Below, piece by piece: positions 32,554 to 41,261 of a stretch of 64,000 bases of DNA (the first letter of the stretch is position 1; every line of letters begins with the position of its first letter). The notes beneath the pieces were generated by a model, which was given only the letters and a program-made list of their open reading frames with translations, was not told the DNA's origin and did not search any database. This DNA is from Phycisphaerae bacterium. GTDB lineage: Bacteria; Planctomycetota; Phycisphaerae; UBA1845; UTPLA1. A program made the translations under genes and the position numbers. The DNA is taken from the NCBI GenBank assembly GCA_019636475.1, contig JAHBXN010000016.1, forward strand, positions 1 through 64,000. Direction: 5' to 3'.

Positions 32554-33024
32554 GGATCGCCCTTTGCATCGGAGTCACTCTCCACGCAAATCCGAAATCT
32601 CCCTCGTTCCGCGAATCGCCGTCTCAAGCGCCGCGAATGCCCAATCATCGCACGCTGCTCAGGGCAATCACCCCATTGTCAAGACAAAAGTTCGCCTGAG
32701 GAGACGGGGCGCCGTGAACCCTCATCCTATCCAAGCGCGATTCTAACATCGCGTCCGTTTCCAATTTTATCATATCTTCACGCGACCCTGCCCGGACTCT
32801 GAACCTTCGACGAATAACCTCGACGCCGTTCCCGCGGTTCGCGAGGTGTCGCTCCTATCGTGCTCAAGATGAACCTGGACACTCACTGAGTGCGTCGCCG
32901 AGCGAGCGTCATGCGTCCCGCCGCTCTCATCAAGAAGGTCCAAGGCGGTGCGATGTATTCGCGCTGAGACGCGACGCACCAAATAAAGGATCGAGCCTGA
33001 ATCGCCGCTGACTGGAGATTGTCG
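32554..33024. other. Intergenic region, 471 bases, no gene recognised
   Basis: This lies between recJ and the pseudopilin gene. It holds a short inverted repeat TTGTC-AA-GACAA at about 32676-32687 and an AT-rich patch at 32755-32778 (TTCCAATTTTATCATATCTTC) that could be part of a promoter. I see no coding frame with supporting features. Confidence 0.45.
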
Positions 33025-34065
33025 ATGAAGAGAGTTTCGCCCGACCGTTTCGCCGCTCGTACAAGTGCCACCGCGTTTACACTCATTGAGCTGCTGGTTG
33101 TCATCTCGATCATCACGCTGCTGCTCGTGGTGCTGCTGCCGGCGCTGTCCAACGCTCGCAAGAGCGGCCAGGCCACGAAGTGCGCCGCCAATCTGCATTC
33201 TGTGGGTCAGGCCGTTTCGACCTATCTAAGCGAAAACAACGGCGTCTTTCCGCCCAGCTATGTGTATCCGGATGCCGACGGTAACTGGGGAATGGACACT
33301 CAGTTGCCGAGCAATCCGTACGGTTACATCCACTGGTCCTGGTTTCTATATTCCGGCGGTCAGGCGCCGGAGACCGCGTTCCAGTGCCCGACGATCCCGA
33401 ACGGAGGCCACCCCCGAACCAATCCCGGGCGCGCGGGGTGGGAGGACGGGCAGGCCGATCAGAACGGTCAGACCAGTCCGAATCAACTGGAGGATCGACA
33501 GGCGATCCGAATGGCATACACCGCCAACGCCGCGATCATGCCGCGAAACAAGTTTACGCAGACGCTGTCCGGCGGCCAGCGCGTGAATATGCTCGTAAAC
33601 GAGTCCAGGATTCATGACGGCGGTAGGACGATTCTCCTGACGGAGTTCAATAAGAACTGGAAATCGACCGGTGTCGATGCCGGCGGAGGTGTCGTGGTGA
33701 AGTCGCATCGCCCCGTCAATCCGTTCTTCCACATCAGCAGCGGATCGAATGAGTATGCCGCTGGCATTGATACGCCGGGCTTCACCTACGGCGACGAGCC
33801 TTACTTCGGCCTGCTTCCGGCGAAGCAGGTCGAGAATGCAACCGCGCTAATCGACAATCCGGGCTTGTCAGAAATCAACTCCGTCGGGCGTCATCATCCC
33901 GGCGGCGATGTCTATACCGGTGGGACGGCAAACTTCCTGTACGCCGACATGCACGTAGACAAGAAGTCGGTCCTTACAACGATGCAAACGCGTGAATGGG
34001 GACTCCGCTACTACGGACTCGACGGTTACAACCGGGTCGGTCCGCCGTGGCCAAGTCAAAACTGA
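33025..34065 (+). CDS. Type II secretion/type IV-like major pseudopilin (prepilin N-terminal methylation domain)
   Basis: This is a 346-residue protein. The prepilin peptidase site and hydrophobic helix are clear: a short basic leader, then TAFTLIELLVVISIITLLLVVLLPALSNARK, with the invariant Glu at mature position five. The body after residue 60 is the large globular domain of planctomycetal pseudopilins. The C-terminal motif reads HHPGGDVYTGGTANFLYADMHVDKKS, corresponding to the H-X9-DG region but with Ala-Asp instead of Asp-Gly. It would be processed by a prepilin peptidase and embedded in an inner-membrane pseudopilus. ATG 33025 is preferred to the in-frame TTG two codons earlier. The next gene encodes a dockerin-containing phosphate-binding-like protein. 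Confidence 0.88.
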   Translation: MKRVSPDRFAARTSATAFTLIELLVVISIITLLLVVLLPALSNARKSGQATKCAANLHSVGQAVSTYLSENNGVFPPSYVYPDADGNWGMDTQLPSNPYGYIHWSWFLYSGGQAPETAFQCPTIPNGGHPRTNPGRAGWEDGQADQNGQTSPNQLEDRQAIRMAYTANAAIMPRNKFTQTLSGGQRVNMLVNESRIHDGGRTILLTEFNKNWKSTGVDAGGGVVVKSHRPVNPFFHISSGSNEYAAGIDTPGFTYGDEPYFGLLPAKQVENATALIDNPGLSEINSVGRHHPGGDVYTGGTANFLYADMHVDKKSVLTTMQTREWGLRYYGLDGYNRVGPPWPSQN

Positions 34066-34177
34066 ACCAGCCGCAGCGCTTCGCTGGTGCGATATTCGTT
34101 GTAGCACCTCGATCATTCGGGCAGAGCCCAGAGGACGGAAGCGGTGCGCGCGCCGCGATTGGGAGGATCATTTTTCA

Positions 34178-34279: not shown

Positions 34280-34333
34280 CACCGAATCGTCGATTGACCT
34301 GTTTCGACTTTTTTCCCAGGAGGATTGCATATC

Positions 34334-37216
34334 GTGAGATACAACATGCTAAAAAACTGCACCCTGGTTGCCGTCATGGCGACAGTGACGACCTGCGCGA
34401 CACGTACCGCCTTCGGCTCCGGCGCGTGCCTGCGAGTCAGCACCCTGACGGGTACGCCAACCTGCGTGGTCGTGGCCGACGAAGCGACATGCACGTCGGT
34501 GCCGAACAGCGTGTACTTTGGTGACGGAACGACCTGCGCGGATGTGCCGGAGGTGTATTACCATCCCGGTGGCGGCCAGATCAATATCAGCGGTGCGACG
34601 CTTTTCGCCAACTTCTTCGAATTTCCCGCGGCGACCAATGACGTGATCAACGTCGATGGCGATATCATCCCGTGCAATGGCCAGCCGTTCGTCGGATTTG
34701 CCAATCTCGACTGCGATCCGATGAATTCGCCGGACGGCATTGACCAACTGGCGCCCGGTTTCACCTGCGGTCAGAAATGGCACGGTCACTGGATTGTGCA
34801 GTATCGATCCGTCGGCTCGGGAAACGGTCTCGCGGAATTCGTGGATTATCAACTGGCCGGCATTTTGCCGTCGCGCATTCCGACTGAACTGGGAGTACTC
34901 AACGCACGACGATGGGCCGGACCCGGCATCAAGCAGGGACCGCTCTCCGGCTGCGAGGCCAACTGCTTTCCGCCACTGAATTCGGCCGACATGGACTGCA
35001 ACGGCATCATCGACGGGGCCGACCTCCGAGGCTTCATCGATGCAATGCTGTCCGGCGTTGGCTGTGACATCAATCGGGCCGACCTCAACGACGACTTCAT
35101 CATCGACCTGCTGGATCTGCCGCGATTCGTGAGCTGCGTTCTCGACGGCGGTCTGAATTGCGGCCGAGCGATCAATGTGAGCAACCCACCCAACTCCGCG
35201 GACACGAACGAGAGCGGCTCGCCCATCTGCCCGACAAGCGTCGACATCGCCAATATGGACGTACCGACCAAGTGGTTCGTGCTGGCGCCGGGCGGCTCGG
35301 GGTCATGGAACCGCAAGCCGACCTTTGCAGGATACGGCGACAATCCAAACGGTTCCTCTGACACCGGCTTCTCCAACAAGCTCAAGCCGCTCTCACGATC
35401 GAACAAGTCCGGTCAGCTCGTGACTCTGAACGTGGATACGGCGAACCCGGATTCGAACACTGTGTTCGACACGACGATCGCGTACTCCCCTGTCGTACCC
35501 ATTGCGAACCGGGGAACGGGCCTTGAAAACGTGACGTTCAGCGAGCTTCAGTATGCCTTCGTTACCGGCCGAATGCCGAACGGTGAGAACCTGATCGTAA
35601 ACTGTCGCGATGTCGGCTCCGGAACACGCAACGCCTGGAGCAACTCGATCGGCATCGATCCGAGCTGGGCCTCGGGTGACAACATCGGCAACCAGACGAC
35701 GTCGTCAAGCAACACAAACCTCGGGCCCAATACACGAGCGACGCAGTGCGGCAGTTCCAGCCACTCAGAGAATGCCGCCCAGCAGCGCCGTCTCTGCCTC
35801 GGATACACCGGAATCTTCGGTGCGGATCGAGCCGCGGCCGATGCGATCGGCGGCCTGTACGAAATCCTGAATGTCCGAAAGGACGTGGCCGGCGGAACGC
35901 AGTACGTTCGATGCGACGTTGACAGTGTTCTCGACAACTCGGACGTGAATACCGGTTGGCAGATCGGAGGTTCACAGACACTCGCGACCCGTGGCGATTA
36001 CCGAAGCGGCATTGATGGGAACACCAATCCTCCGATGAACAACCCGGCGGCGCGCGACTACATGATGAACCTGACGGTCAGCATTTCGAACTACGTCAAT
36101 TCCGGCGCGGCGCCGGAGTTCAATTCGCCCGCCGAAATCCTTGTGAAGCAGTTCATTCTCGACGTCGGCGTGGACGCCACGCCGGAACTGACGGATCCGA
36201 TGAACTACCTTCCGACCACCGGATTCGATCAGGCCATTCAGGACGACGTTCGAGCGATCAACGTGACGACCGTTCCCGCATTCGGCTCGGTCTTCCCGGG
36301 AGACGGTGGTCGGGTTCCGGTTCGCAACAACAACCCAGGCCTTTATAGCGACGGCAGTACGGCCGCATACCTTGACGGCAACGGCGCCCCGACGATCACA
36401 AGCGGTCAGCGCGTCTTTCCGCGGATGAAGATTCAGGGCGACTTCGAGGCGGACGGCGATCGCGATATTGACGACATCGCACCGATGCTCGCGGCGCTGT
36501 CCAATCCGCGCGCCTTCTCGGCGGCCGACGCGGCGAACCATCCGGGTAATTACATCATCCCGGAGATTCTGGGCGACTTTGACGGCGATGGAAACTTCAA
36601 CCACATGGACATCCGCTACTTCGCGGACGGCCTGGCATTGGTCAACGGCAGCGTCAATCGCAAGGCCGGTTTCATTGAAGTGGATGAAGCCTGGGAGGCC
36701 GCGACCGCCGCAGGTAACTTCTTCTTCACGGACACGACAAAAGTCCCGACGACCACGGTCCTCATCACCGGCACTTATGACGCGGGCGATGCCCGAGGCG
36801 ATGTGGCCGGCAACACCCCGTGGCGAGGCGCCCAGCCGCACGGCCATGACTTCGTGGTTAATCACGCGGACATCGAGTATGTGCGCGCGAACATCTATGC
36901 CGGCGTCTGGGGAACGAACCTCGACAACCACTTCGACAAGGACCTGAGTTGTGACATGAACGGCGACCTGCTGGTCGATTGTGCCGACGTGGTGGAGATC
37001 GTCGAGAAAATCCTTGACACGAAGATGGGCGACCTCGACCTGAACGGCGTCGTCGATTGTGGCGATATCACGACGTTGCAGGGTAACATCGGCGTGGTCA
37101 CCAGCGGTGCGACCTACGCTCAAGGCGATTTGGACTGCGACGGCGACGTCGATGCCGACGACCTGGCCATCGCTTGCGGCAACTGCCCCGGCTGCGCCGG
37201 CACCTGCTGCCCTTGA
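34334..37216 (+). CDS. Secreted PstS-like substrate-binding protein with several dockerin segments
   Basis: This is a 960-residue exported protein. AGGAGG is ten bases before GTG 34334; ATG 34346 is an alternative. After the signal peptide, three phosphate-binding-type motifs of the PstS family appear: SGATLFANFF, YRSVGSGNGL and, about 260 residues later, CRDVGSGTRNA. Between motifs two and three sits a dockerin-like pair (DMDCNGIIDGADLRGFID, DLNDDFIIDLLDLPRFV). The C-terminal third contains further EF-like loops (DFEADGDRDIDDIAPML, DFDGDGNFNHMDIRYF, DMNGDLLVDCADVVEIV, DLDCDGDVDADDLAI). So a PstS-like fold appears interrupted and extended by calcium-binding dockerin repeats. It follows a pseudopilin gene. 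Phosphate binding is inferred from motifs only. Confidence 0.78.
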   Translation: MRYNMLKNCTLVAVMATVTTCATRTAFGSGACLRVSTLTGTPTCVVVADEATCTSVPNSVYFGDGTTCADVPEVYYHPGGGQINISGATLFANFFEFPAATNDVINVDGDIIPCNGQPFVGFANLDCDPMNSPDGIDQLAPGFTCGQKWHGHWIVQYRSVGSGNGLAEFVDYQLAGILPSRIPTELGVLNARRWAGPGIKQGPLSGCEANCFPPLNSADMDCNGIIDGADLRGFIDAMLSGVGCDINRADLNDDFIIDLLDLPRFVSCVLDGGLNCGRAINVSNPPNSADTNESGSPICPTSVDIANMDVPTKWFVLAPGGSGSWNRKPTFAGYGDNPNGSSDTGFSNKLKPLSRSNKSGQLVTLNVDTANPDSNTVFDTTIAYSPVVPIANRGTGLENVTFSELQYAFVTGRMPNGENLIVNCRDVGSGTRNAWSNSIGIDPSWASGDNIGNQTTSSSNTNLGPNTRATQCGSSSHSENAAQQRRLCLGYTGIFGADRAAADAIGGLYEILNVRKDVAGGTQYVRCDVDSVLDNSDVNTGWQIGGSQTLATRGDYRSGIDGNTNPPMNNPAARDYMMNLTVSISNYVNSGAAPEFNSPAEILVKQFILDVGVDATPELTDPMNYLPTTGFDQAIQDDVRAINVTTVPAFGSVFPGDGGRVPVRNNNPGLYSDGSTAAYLDGNGAPTITSGQRVFPRMKIQGDFEADGDRDIDDIAPMLAALSNPRAFSAADAANHPGNYIIPEILGDFDGDGNFNHMDIRYFADGLALVNGSVNRKAGFIEVDEAWEAATAAGNFFFTDTTKVPTTTVLITGTYDAGDARGDVAGNTPWRGAQPHGHDFVVNHADIEYVRANIYAGVWGTNLDNHFDKDLSCDMNGDLLVDCADVVEIVEKILDTKMGDLDLNGVVDCGDITTLQGNIGVVTSGATYAQGDLDCDGDVDADDLAIACGNCPGCAGTCCP

Positions 37217-37256
37217 CGGACGATCAACCGGGCCGGTCAGAGTCGATTATTCAGGA

Positions 37257-37292
37257 GCGGGTCGGCGCGCTTGCCGGCCCGCTTCTTTTTTT
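37257..37292 (+). terminator. Rho-independent terminator after PstS-dockerin gene
   Basis: A ten-base stem GCGGGTCGGC/GCCGGCCCGC with one G-T wobble and a six-base loop is followed by TTCTTTTTTT. It lies 41 bases after the stop codon. Confidence 0.88.
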
Positions 37293-38434: not shown

Positions 38435-40264
38435 TCAGTCCGCATCACCCGAGGGCGTGCCGGCGAAAGCCGATGATACCGAAGGCGGCTCGGCCACGTT
38501 GCGCAGAGTCGGGTTGTCCGCGAGAAACCGGCCCTCGAACTCAGGCTGCCAACCGAAGCTGCCGCGGCGCGACGGCAGTGCCCAGATGTTGTCACTGACC
38601 AGCGGTGCAACCCGCCGCGCCCCGAGGGCACGCCAGGGATGGGCGTGCGCCGTTCGCATCGACGATTGCTCAGTCGTCGCAGGCAGCGGAGCAAAGAGAC
38701 CGTTGCCGGCCGTCGGATCGTATGCCGTGAACGAATCGAGCGGCGTCTCCATAACTTGACCTGCGACGCGATCGTATGTGAACGGCTCAACAAGCGTCAT
38801 GTCATCAGCTGGCGAGATCGGCTGCATGGCTCCGGCTGTTGCTTCCGGCGCGCCGTCGGGTGTCGCGTCCCCCGTTGAATCGACAAGACCTCTCGATGCG
38901 GCAGTCGCGAATGGCAATCCGGCCGACGCCGATTCGCCCTTGATTTCTCCGCCGCTCAGGACGCTTGCGACGGATCCGTCAACGAAATCGCTGTTCGGCT
39001 GCTCCTCGCAATCGACGACGAGCGCGAAGGCGGTTGAGGCGGCGCGCTCTGCGTCGGTGACTTCTCGCGATTCATCATCGCAAGGATCAATGACGATCGC
39101 CGAATTCGCCGGCAGGACAGCCGACTCTTCGCGACCAAATCGAGGCGGACCGTCGTAAACCGCACTTCTTTCGGCACGGCGCGAGACTTCGGTGAATCGT
39201 CGAGCCCAATCAGCCAGCAACGCCTGGTAATCGTCGGCCGCCTGCTCCCACAAAAGGGAAACTTCCTCCGGCGTCATCGTGACGACATCCGATTCGTCCT
39301 GACCGTCGCAGGGATCGGCGGCGCCCCATTCGGCGCCAAACTCCGACTCACTCGCATCCAACTGCTCCGACGAATTCGACGCGGAATCTTCGGTACCGAT
39401 GTAACTGAGCCAGTCCGAATCCACTCCGGCGTCCGCCAGCGTATGATCCACAACCTGAAGGGCGTAGGTGCAGGCCAGTCCGACATTCCCGGCACGGTCA
39501 ACCGCCTCAACACGGAACCAAATTTCGTGATCAAATGCGTATCCCGGCAGTTCAAACGTGAATGAGCCGACGTCCGGGAGGTCCCGCTGTAACTCGATCA
39601 TGCGACTCTCGTCCGATGAGAAATCGAGTAACAGGCCGATTCGCACAGGAGATTCGACGAGATGCGGATCGACCGCACGCCACGTGATCGTCACAGGTTC
39701 GCCGACCTGATACCACGTCTGCTGAGGCTCGAGCCAGACCTCCAGTGCGGGTGCGGAAGTGTCCACGTGATAGACACGCACCGGGTATGCGGGCGTATGT
39801 TCGGCGGGGTCCTGGCCCGGTCCAACGAATCGAACGCCGTAGTCGCCGTCGCAACTCGCTTCGAACGCGAAGTACGATTGGCCGCGGCCGAAATACCCTT
39901 CCCGCTGCCAGTTCCGCCCGTTGTCGTTGGTCCACCAGAGGGCGATACGCGGCGTCTCCTCGGATTCATACCCTCCCGGTTGTCGCACCATGACGAGCTT
40001 CTGATTAACAAAATAGTGCGCCGGATCGCCCGGACGCGCCATCGGTTCCGGCGCGGGTTCTTCGATCGGCCGAGTGTATTCGGGCTGGTCGTATGCCCAA
40101 TCGGGATAGGTTCGTTGCGGATTGAAAGCGGCCTGATCACTGTGGGAGCCGCGGGTCGCAACCGGGACAGACTTGGCAGACGATCCGCATCCAGCGATCG
40201 CCATTCCAAGAAAAGCGGCAGACGACAGGCTTGTGAGCGTTTTCATCCGTGATTTGTTGTGCAT
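38435..40264 (-). CDS. Large acidic lipoprotein with Ig-like beta-sandwich
   Basis: This protein of about 609 residues is of unknown function. The likely start is ATG 40264, nine bases after AAGG; ATG 40246 also gives a good lipoprotein signal (MKTLTSLSSAAFLGMAIAGC). The first 300 residues hold Trp-rich beta strands (RIALWWTNDNGRNWQREGYFG, YRVYHVDTS-like SAPALEVWLEP, VTITWRAVDPHLVESPVRIGLL, IWFRVEAVDRAGNVG), resembling fibronectin/Ig-type modules seen in planctomycetal proteins. The C-terminal half is acidic and Ser/Ala-rich, probably disordered. It is likely attached to a membrane on the periplasmic side. A perfect inverted repeat (40320-40345) lies about 60 bases upstream of the start. Confidence 0.7.
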   Translation of the reverse strand: MHNKSRMKTLTSLSSAAFLGMAIAGCGSSAKSVPVATRGSHSDQAAFNPQRTYPDWAYDQPEYTRPIEEPAPEPMARPGDPAHYFVNQKLVMVRQPGGYESEETPRIALWWTNDNGRNWQREGYFGRGQSYFAFEASCDGDYGVRFVGPGQDPAEHTPAYPVRVYHVDTSAPALEVWLEPQQTWYQVGEPVTITWRAVDPHLVESPVRIGLLLDFSSDESRMIELQRDLPDVGSFTFELPGYAFDHEIWFRVEAVDRAGNVGLACTYALQVVDHTLADAGVDSDWLSYIGTEDSASNSSEQLDASESEFGAEWGAADPCDGQDESDVVTMTPEEVSLLWEQAADDYQALLADWARRFTEVSRRAERSAVYDGPPRFGREESAVLPANSAIVIDPCDDESREVTDAERAASTAFALVVDCEEQPNSDFVDGSVASVLSGGEIKGESASAGLPFATAASRGLVDSTGDATPDGAPEATAGAMQPISPADDMTLVEPFTYDRVAGQVMETPLDSFTAYDPTAGNGLFAPLPATTEQSSMRTAHAHPWRALGARRVAPLVSDNIWALPSRRGSFGWQPEFEGRFLADNPTLRNVAEPPSVSSAFAGTPSGDAD

Positions 40265-40319
40265 GGCATGCATCCTTGCAATGCGGCTGTCCCCAGCTCT
40301 TGGAATTCTATTGGCGATA

Positions 40320-40345
40320 CTATCGGACGCAACGGCTTCCGATAG
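40320..40345. promoter_or_regulatory. Perfect inverted repeat upstream of lipoprotein gene, operator candidate
   Basis: CTATCGGA and TCCGATAG are perfect eight-base arms separated by ten bases. The repeat lies 56 bases upstream of the lipoprotein start and 77 bases after the purQ stop codon. Without a T run it does not look like a terminator. Its binder is unknown. Confidence 0.45.
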
Positions 40346-40421
40346 ATGTGCCCATATCGACACTCGCACGCGAGGCGCTTGATGCGATCTATCGCCCCAA
40401 CAGAGATTCTGGAAATGGTGA

Positions 40422-41261
40422 CTAGGAGCTGAGGCGCTTGACGGCCGTCCGGAACATTCGCAAGCCGTCCGGCTCGGATTGATCGCCCATATCAGTATTG
40501 CGACCGCCGATTCCGGCTGGCACGTGGGTCGCAAAGATACACCGCTCCGGGTGCGGCATGAGGCCAAACACACGGCCAGTGCTGTCAATGAGGCCGGCGA
40601 TGTTATCAGTGCTGCCGTTCGGGTTCGACGGAAACGTCAATCCTTCACACTCGCCCGCTTGAGAAGGCTGCCGGTTTGAGGCCGACCCGGCGGGCAGGGC
40701 GTCATCGGCGGCGTAACGAAGTGCGATGCGGTCGTTCGAAGCCAAAGCTTTCGCACCTTCGCTTCCACCCGCGACGACAACCCGACCCTCACCATGCGCC
40801 ACGGGCAACCGATAGATCTGCCCCTTTTCGAGAAACGCGCACCGGTCGGTCTGGGCACGCAGGGAGACCCACCGATCCTCGTATCGCCCCGACTCATTCA
40901 GCGCCAGCGTCACCCGAACGCCAATATCCGCGCCGGGGACGATTCCCATCCGCACGAGCACCTGAAACCCGTTGCAGATACCGACGACGAGGCCACCCCG
41001 ATCGATAAAGGCCGCCAATTCGTCGGGCAGGTGGTTCGTGATCTGATTCGCAAGGATTCGCCCACTGGCGATGTCGTCGCCGTAGGAGAATCCACCGGGA
41101 ATGGTCAGAACCTGAAACCCGCCAAGGAGCGCGGGATTCTCGCAAAGGTGGTTGATGTGAACCCGATCTGGGTTCGCCCCGACTGATTTCCATGCGTACG
41201 CGGTCTCCTCGTCGCAGTTGATTCCGGGGGCACGAAGTATGAGTACGCGCGGGGACGCCAT
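40422..41261 (-). CDS. purQ: Phosphoribosylformylglycinamidine synthase subunit I (glutaminase)
   Basis: This is a 279-residue class I glutamine amidotransferase, which supplies ammonia to PurL for FGAM formation in purine synthesis. Motifs: RVLILRAPGINCDEETAYAW at the N-terminus, LTIPGGFSYGDDIASGRI, the nucleophile Cys in VVGICNGFQVLVRMGI, RLPVAHGEGR, and the His-Glu pair in GLMPHPERCI. It is somewhat longer than typical PurQ (about 230 residues), with an insertion around residues 190-225. I start at ATG 41261, just before the conserved PRVLILRAPG. No purS or purL is adjacent. Confidence 0.93.
   Translation of the reverse strand: MASPRVLILRAPGINCDEETAYAWKSVGANPDRVHINHLCENPALLGGFQVLTIPGGFSYGDDIASGRILANQITNHLPDELAAFIDRGGLVVGICNGFQVLVRMGIVPGADIGVRVTLALNESGRYEDRWVSLRAQTDRCAFLEKGQIYRLPVAHGEGRVVVAGGSEGAKALASNDRIALRYAADDALPAGSASNRQPSQAGECEGLTFPSNPNGSTDNIAGLIDSTGRVFGLMPHPERCIFATHVPAGIGGRNTDMGDQSEPDGLRMFRTAVKRLSS

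Follow-up and report, generated by a model that had tools for sequence, protein, structure and literature searches.

Substrate-binding proteins are the textbook periplasmic partners of importers. The first 64,000 nucleotides of contig JAHBXN010000016.1 from a Phycisphaerae bacterium (this whole stretch is called the window) raise the question of what such a protein does when its fold is joined to dockerin-like modules and its gene lies directly behind a prepilin gene. The two genes are named PSTL, for the PstS-like protein, and PIL, for the prepilin. In the initial annotation, made from the sequence of the window alone, PSTL was read as a phosphate-binding fold interrupted by dockerin repeats, which would be docked at the surface instead of serving a normal ATP-binding cassette (ABC) importer. 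This reading is partly supported here, and the finding is wider, as the C-terminal array as the wider feature and the near-constant upstream pilin gene had been overlooked. A PIL-paired PstS-like protein with dockerin-like modules suggests that phosphate is caught outside the cell and is not handed straight to an importer.

The structure of PSTL was predicted from 69 aligned sequences, those of the window protein and of 68 relatives, the latter representing 68 of 80 fetched loci; the other 12 were omitted for an unmatched start pattern, for one lying off the contig or for N letters in the sequence. The AlphaFold model had a mean predicted local distance difference test score (pLDDT) of 86.1 and a predicted template modelling score (pTM) of 0.85. 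When the model was compared with the PDB using Foldseek, the first 43 rows were all phosphate-binding, PstS, PhoX or DING proteins (some titled 'putative' or 'possible'), with a best expect value (E) of 4.4e-5 and 11 rows at E <= 0.001. Using VIA-align, the model could be superposed on PstS1 of S. pneumoniae (Z 17.7, root-mean-square deviation 2.8, 251 of 260 residues) and on E. coli PstS (Z 12.0, matched span model residues 51-604). The core of PSTL is thus predicted to have the PstS-type two-lobe (Venus-flytrap) fold, and the motifs recognized in the initial annotation sit in this single modelled fold and not in unrelated domains.

The phosphate-holding residues of E. coli PstS, T10, F11, S38, D56, R135, S139, G140 and T141, would correspond to T92, L93, S165, D312, R428, S432, G433 and T434 of PSTL, and these are conserved in 66, 69, 68, 68, 69, 69, 69 and 69 of the 69 rows, respectively. 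In the structural alignment, residues 1..301 of E. coli PstS (2abh) align with model residues 52..604, of which only the end residues are given, and model T61 falls on E. coli Thr10 provided that no gap lies between. Seven of the eight positions are identical to the E. coli residue, and at the remaining one L93 replaces Phe; position 11 of PstS touches phosphate by its main chain. The three PstS loops named in the initial annotation (GATLF, RSVGSG and RDVGSGTRN) were all located in frame, and PstS has a further ligand loop, the Asp loop, with DIANMDVP as its counterpart in PSTL. Of the 455 core columns, 58 reach a conservation of 90% or more, and all eight ligand columns belong to these 58 (hypergeometric p 4.5e-8, where the eight columns were chosen via the numbering of E. 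coli PstS and neighbouring columns are not independent). Fold and conservation in 69 aligned rows rule out chance matches to the motifs. A shared fold does not prove function, and the family is distant from PstS in sequence, so the PstS fold could have been reused in an adhesin or a structural pilus-associated protein with no small ligand or with another oxyanion. However, 66-69 of 69 rows retain each of the eight ligand positions and several lineages show a linkage of Pho genes to PSTL (see below), and such a reuse is considered quite improbable.

The PSTL family was identified in 9 of 392 genomes across the phylum, namely in the genome of the window and in eight others of the same class (at most three candidates were scored per genome in this survey, and at most 14 in a survey of 61 genomes). 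A search for related loci with the single window PSTL was unproductive. Relatives in named genomes, of which 80 of 124 were kept, come mostly from bins titled Phycisphaerae, Phycisphaerales or Planctomycetota; a few titled Verrucomicrobiia, Leptolyngbya or Alphaproteobacteria branch among the others in the tree and are probably mislabelled.

PIL immediately precedes PSTL in 26 of 27 relatives, at 76 of 80 loci of named genomes (a 77th, L119, is visible in neighbour clustering) and in all eight loci of the same class beyond the order, one of which (L159) equals L131 of the named set. The sets of 27 and 80 loci overlap in part. After 22 pairs with identical C-terminal 300 residues had been merged, 94 distinct loci remained, window included, and 90 of these have PIL directly upstream. 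The exceptions are two contigs starting inside PSTL (L081, L090), one contig starting inside PIL (L105) and L045, the one true exception, where PIL lies about 80 kb from PSTL in the same genome. Of the 61 genomes, 28 have PSTL, and each of these also has a match to PIL of at least 397 bits; among the 33 that lack PSTL, such a match occurs once, about 120 bases before the end of its contig (Fisher p 1.5e-16, without correction for kinship). The PIL stop and the GATL motif are separated by a median distance of 326.5 bases (82 measurable loci) and by about 524 bases in the window.

All 76 PIL members match GspG/ComGC models with their N-terminal part. TIGR02532 was found in 73 of the 76 at E 0.001 (15.8 bits for the window PIL, cut-off 16.3) and TIGR04294, the H-X9-DG model, in seven at E 0.001, the window PIL not being among the matches listed. 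The relatives of PIL are alike over their whole length; the other prepilin matches in the own genome, at 26 further places, cover mainly its N-terminal part. Genome G017 holds two extra full-length PIL copies (L166, L167) with no PSTL recognized beside them, G060 holds a weaker relative (180 bits), and in two related genomes a PIL match with one internal TGA was observed (G002:C1:3091034-3092029 and G013:C1:3469492-3470484).

The dockerin-like modules of PSTL occur at two places. The inserted pair, with the calcium loops DMDCNGIIDGADL and DLNDDFIIDLLDL, separates the GSG loop from the Asp loop. The initial annotation had placed it between the second and third of three loops; the insert is indeed there, but PstS has four such loops, so that it lies between loops 2 and 3 of four. 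By eye, the pair could be identified in six of 28 rows of the same order, the window and five of its 27 relatives (L031, L032, L033, L039 and L040), all of family f1; the remaining rows share the fold and lack the pair. On this count, the dockerin insert was rejected as the trait that defines the family. The interval from the GSG loop to the Asp loop varies from about 50 to 190 residues in a second alignment, with 136 for the window; it is longer than in the window in three rows that lack dockerin loops, and row L122 is misaligned there. Because a careful tree calculated without the insert columns needs two changes, the insert is taken to have been gained twice, or gained and lost; a single change sufficed in an earlier quick tree of the 69 rows, from which two insert rows were missing. 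Four other matches to the window PSTL are listed in its own genome and all cover the insert only (query residues 208-294, E 3.5e-6 to 2.2e-5), and it therefore seems to be a module that also occurs in other proteins.

The further calcium loops that had been noticed in the C-terminus were recovered as three dockerin-like pairs, recognized by eye and common to most of the 28 rows, some of which end differently (L046, L047). Several Asp and Gly positions of this array are conserved in at least 80% of the 69 rows, and 63 of them carry at least one strict calcium-loop pattern in the tail. Judged by these alignments, the C-terminal dockerin-like array, and not the insert, is the wider feature. The identity of the modules as dockerins held in part: in the modelled insert, two calcium loops are each followed by a helix (model residues 200-212 and 231-242, low-to-middling confidence), but the Pfam cut-off was missed. 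The whole protein gave one Dockerin_1 match (residues 902-949), and seven of 28 core rows match this model at E <= 1, the best at 1.2e-4. 'Dockerin-like' is the safe name for these modules.

Phosphate genes adjoin the pair in some lineages. In the fetched flanks, many of them only 6 kb or cut by contig ends, pstS, pstC or pstA were found at eight of the 94 distinct loci, compared to roughly 0.25-0.4 expected by a rough yardstick of one pst operon per 4.5 Mb genome and a flank of 12-20 kb; the linked loci are six if two contigs of one assembly and two near relatives are counted once each. The most complete arrangement, on L067 and L046 (same contig), is a run of nine genes for a response regulator, a PAS-HAMP histidine kinase, PIL, PSTL, PstS, two BPD_transp_1 permeases, an ABC ATPase and PhoU (L067:1650-13365, L046:1360-13841). 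PhoU is seen on L046 only, since L067 ends before it, and the names PhoB, PhoR, PstC, PstA and PstB rest on gene order and domain; the PstS beside PSTL on L067 matches PF12849 at E 4.5e-40. In L072 a Porin_5 protein lies between PSTL and PstS, and a protein of the same cluster is present in L081 and L090. Parts of a pst operon were found in L066, L057 and L101/L104, on the opposite strand in the latter two, and at L044 the pair is preceded by a kinase and followed by a PhoU-domain protein. On the tree, Pho linkage requires at least six changes (seven rows marked as linked, with L072, L081 and L090 absent and the row of L091, which has a PhoU-APH fusion as neighbour, counted as linked), and is either old and often lost or was gained repeatedly. 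L054 (12142-13830) encodes a protein in which PhoU domains are predicted to be fused to an APH-type phosphotransferase domain; this locus is counted among the 85 without pst or ordinary phoU mentioned below.

Since a separate ordinary PstS adjoins PSTL in the linked pst loci, PSTL is not expected to be the receptor of the importer. The own genome, which is 95% complete, contains no PF12849 match and no PstC or PstA over the cut-off. Its sole match to the PstC model is an amino acid permease (E 6.4e-7, 29.3 bits, cut-off 196.45). The PstC model TIGR02138 is over the cut-off in 30 of the 61 genomes, not including that of the window, and in only one of the 17 of its family (G003). On this gene content PSTL was rejected as a Pst importer receptor, and the claim that it would not serve a normal importer is supported indirectly. 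Four BPD_transp_1 matches of the own genome were considered as PstC/PstA and rejected, since they resemble permeases for sugars, amino acids and glycine betaine. The genome also encodes a PiT permease.

Putative partners for the modules and for PIL could also be identified in this genome. Two cohesin matches lie on one contig, in a cohesin/dockerin protein and in a protein with CotH, lamin-tail and cohesin domains, and Dockerin_1 matches occur at 39 places. Six secretin and 17 T2SSE-ATPase matches were found, so filament or secretion machines appear to exist. The cohesin/dockerin and CotH-lamin tail-cohesin proteins stand in a cluster on contig C13 (L171:3348-18902) that also includes laminin-G/dockerin proteins.

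Taken together, it is proposed that PSTL is an extracellular or surface phosphate-binding protein that is exported or displayed with a dedicated pilin, a reading which we hold to be about evenly balanced between right and wrong. PSTL would be exported and would bind phosphate apart from the Pst importer of the cytoplasmic membrane, most likely at the cell surface or outside. PIL would form or cap a filament of the type IV-pilus or type II-pseudopilus kind that presents or exports PSTL, presumably by contact between the two, and the dockerin-like modules would fold with calcium and fix PSTL to cohesin-bearing scaffolds or to the filament. An outer-membrane porin may then admit the captured phosphate, which would be taken up by an ordinary carrier, namely PstSCAB in genomes that have it and PiT in that of the window. 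Such a protein, from a family that is widespread in one class, keeps its phosphate site, carries dockerins, is separate from the importer and is paired with a single pilin, would imply that nutrient capture can be relocated to the outside of the cell, and one of the many prepilin-like genes of Planctomycetes would gain a first function that is open to test. The PIL-PSTL pair is directly testable, as both proteins are conserved and predicted with confidence. A more specific version, offered tentatively and rated as a minority possibility, is a phosphate-catching pilus in which the PIL filament bears PSTL as a calcium-locked head that fishes phosphate beyond the outer membrane and delivers it to the porin. 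If true, this would be a filament-borne substrate-binding protein, Pho-regulated in some lineages and Pst-independent in others.

The same genes could be explained by free secretion. PSTL might be a phosphate scavenger released via a type II secretion system (T2SS), with PIL as cargo-specific pseudopilin and the modules serving only for calcium stabilization. Pseudopilins are small, whereas PIL has a long C-terminal domain; in addition, cohesins are available for the dockerins in the own genome, and no T2SS cluster was noticed among the annotated neighbours, whose flanks were not searched for one. The GspG/ComGC matches of all 76 PIL members and the secretins and ATPases of the own genome are in line with this explanation, in which PSTL would be the counterpart of Pseudomonas Psp/Hxc, and Psp of P. 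fluorescens is a precedent as far as the available text of its report goes (PMC2225411). It is regarded as possible but rather doubtful.

A third explanation starts from the cohesins. The lamin-tail/CotH/cohesin and cohesin/dockerin proteins of the own genome resemble the anchor and adaptor proposed for the 'planctosome' in the available text of PMC6461901, and PSTL could be part of such a polymer- or peptide-degrading cohesin-dockerin complex, catching released phosphate or a phosphorylated fragment, with PIL only aiding attachment. Genes for M14 carboxypeptidase (two loci), reprolysin with dockerin and subtilase with P-domain indeed adjoin PSTL at some loci (L087:5845-8130, L088:8846-11275, L136:8960-12016, L037:5114-7150). 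However, these peptidase neighbours vary by locus while PIL is the constant partner, and the Pho genes are the sole recurring set recognized among the annotated neighbours, which makes this explanation unlikely.

Several observations weigh against a surface phosphate-binding protein displayed with PIL. Sequence searches hardly detect PstS: a profile search of the PDB gave one match at E 0.43, to a V. cholerae ABC-type periplasmic binding protein titled phosphate receptor, and a PDB search with the single PSTL protein gave nothing useful. PBP_like_2 (PF12849) matches four of 28 members, at best with E 0.0012 and below the Pfam cut-off, and does not match the window PSTL; hhalign gave a probability of 6% and a local E of 0.006. 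For PIL, no Foldseek match of the model was obtained at E 0.001, and it resembles pilins weakly, with four pilins among the best five VIA-align matches (Z 4.9 and below), a list that does not exclude other families. Except for PIL there is no constant neighbour, the next largest cluster covering eight of 108 loci (duplicates unmerged, T2SS and type IV pilus genes not searched as such). The inserted dockerin-like pair is modelled at low to middling confidence, and the Pfam dockerin scores of the window PSTL are below the 22.9-bit cut-off of PF00404 (last pair E 0.021, insert E 0.92), which makes binding to cohesin uncertain; the loops might be only calcium-stabilized spacers. Finally, 85 of the 94 loci, window included, have no pst or ordinary phoU in the fetched flanks, and by hand tally 17 of the 28 PSTL genomes also have a PstC over the cut-off while 11 do not; because of these 17, the PIL-PSTL pair is no simple replacement of Pst.

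The features of the locus are collected in the table below. The open frame of PSTL spans 34325-37216 (+) from a TTG and 34334-37216 from a GTG, and the GTG, which stands behind AGGAGG, is the likely start. From there the protein consists of a signal-peptide-like stretch (by eye), a short Cys-containing segment, the binding domain and a long C-terminal calcium-loop region; a scan with NCBIfam gave no useful match. Terminator-like hairpins occur at chance level in the region (four found, 4.1 expected), the stem behind PSTL being the longest and the others having five pairs. Between PIL and PSTL only a 5-pair hairpin was found (34076-34090), of a kind expected by chance, and a scan of the region for sigma-70 promoters was likewise at chance level. 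Downstream of the pair, an open reading frame of 717 amino acids lies on the opposite strand (window 38435-40588, -).

Table. Features of the PIL-PSTL locus in window coordinates (counts refer to the alignment rows).
Feature	Position	Strand	Remark
PIL: prepilin, N-terminal FTLIELLVV, H-X9-DG-like end (GRHHPGG...FLYADMHV)	33019..34065	+	
AGGAGG ribosome-binding site for GTG 34334	34318..34323	+	sequence reading
PSTL: PstS-like protein with dockerin-like modules	34334..37216	+	960 aa from GTG
Probable Sec signal peptide of PSTL (MRYNMLKNCTLVAVMATVTTCATRTAFG...)	34334..34423	+	by eye only
PstS fold segment 1 (GATLF and RSVGSG loops)	34571..34951	+	
Ligand loop 1, GATLF	34592..34606	+	T 66/69 (S 3), L 69/69
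Ligand loop 2, RSVGSG (Ser165)	34805..34822	+	Ser 68/69, one gap
Inserted dockerin-like pair	34952..35194 (about)	+	loops ~34988-35026 and ~35081-35119; absent in 22/28 rows
PstS fold segment 2	35195..36229	+	fold match up to model residue 604 = residue 635
Ligand loop 3, Asp312 of DIANMDVP	35258..35260	+	Asp 68/69, one gap
Ligand loop 4, RDVGSGTRN (Arg428, Ser432, Gly433, Thr434)	35606..35632	+	all four 69/69
C-terminal dockerin-like pair A	36422..36670	+	by eye
C-terminal dockerin-like pair B, loops widely spaced	36671..36970	+	by eye
C-terminal dockerin-like pair C	37021..37183	+	holds whole-protein Pfam Dockerin_1 match, E 0.021
Intrinsic-terminator-like hairpin 3' of PSTL	37253..37286	+	15 pairs, then T-run

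Compared to known systems, PSTL resembles the PstS of PstSCAB (PDB 4lat, 2abh) in its predicted two-lobe fold and, by position, in the phosphate-contacting residues except for Leu instead of Phe at position 11. It differs from PstS in being about three times as long, in its dockerin-like pairs and in its prepilin partner; furthermore, the own genome has no recognized PstCA, and linked pst operons hold a PstS of their own. The fold match to a DING protein is weaker (2q9t, Z 10.0), and the DINGGG signature was not seen by eye in the PSTL sequence. PIL has a prepilin N-terminus and an H-X9-DG-like end that may relate it to the TIGR04294 prepilins, but forms a group separate from the other prepilins of its genome, whose matches are mainly N-terminal. 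In titles and abstract openings of the open-licence literature no description of a dockerin-bearing PstS or of the PIL-PSTL pair was found; an extracellular PstS-like protein is of a known kind, while the architecture of PSTL and its pilin partner are undescribed within that literature.

The planctosome is a cohesin-dockerin complex proposed for peptide breakdown in freshwater Phycisphaerae, and the proposal, in its available text, names M14, M12B and P-domains as well as PhoR-PhoB and phosphate-selective porins in lacustrine Planctomycetes (PMC6461901). It comes from the same bacterial class and shares with the PSTL genomes the cohesin, lamin-tail and dockerin proteins and, beside some PSTL genes, the M14/M12B peptidases, but the available text of the published model names no phosphate-binding component (PMC6461901). 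In Caulobacter, the phosphate-starvation lipoprotein ElpS is encoded near a T2SS according to the available text of PMC2996285. Psp, a PstS-like DING protein of P. fluorescens, is described in the available text of its report as produced when phosphate is limiting, secreted for the most part by the Hxc T2SS, flanked by the hxc genes and proposed to scavenge extracellular phosphate for Pst (PMC2225411). A whole T2SS cluster thus flanks Psp, whereas PSTL is flanked by one prepilin gene, and no dockerins are mentioned for Psp in that text. Nevertheless, both are PstS-like proteins genetically tied to a filament-type export machine of the type II/IV kind, outside the cell in the case of Psp and presumably so for PSTL, and by this analogy Psp is the nearest tested precedent for PSTL.

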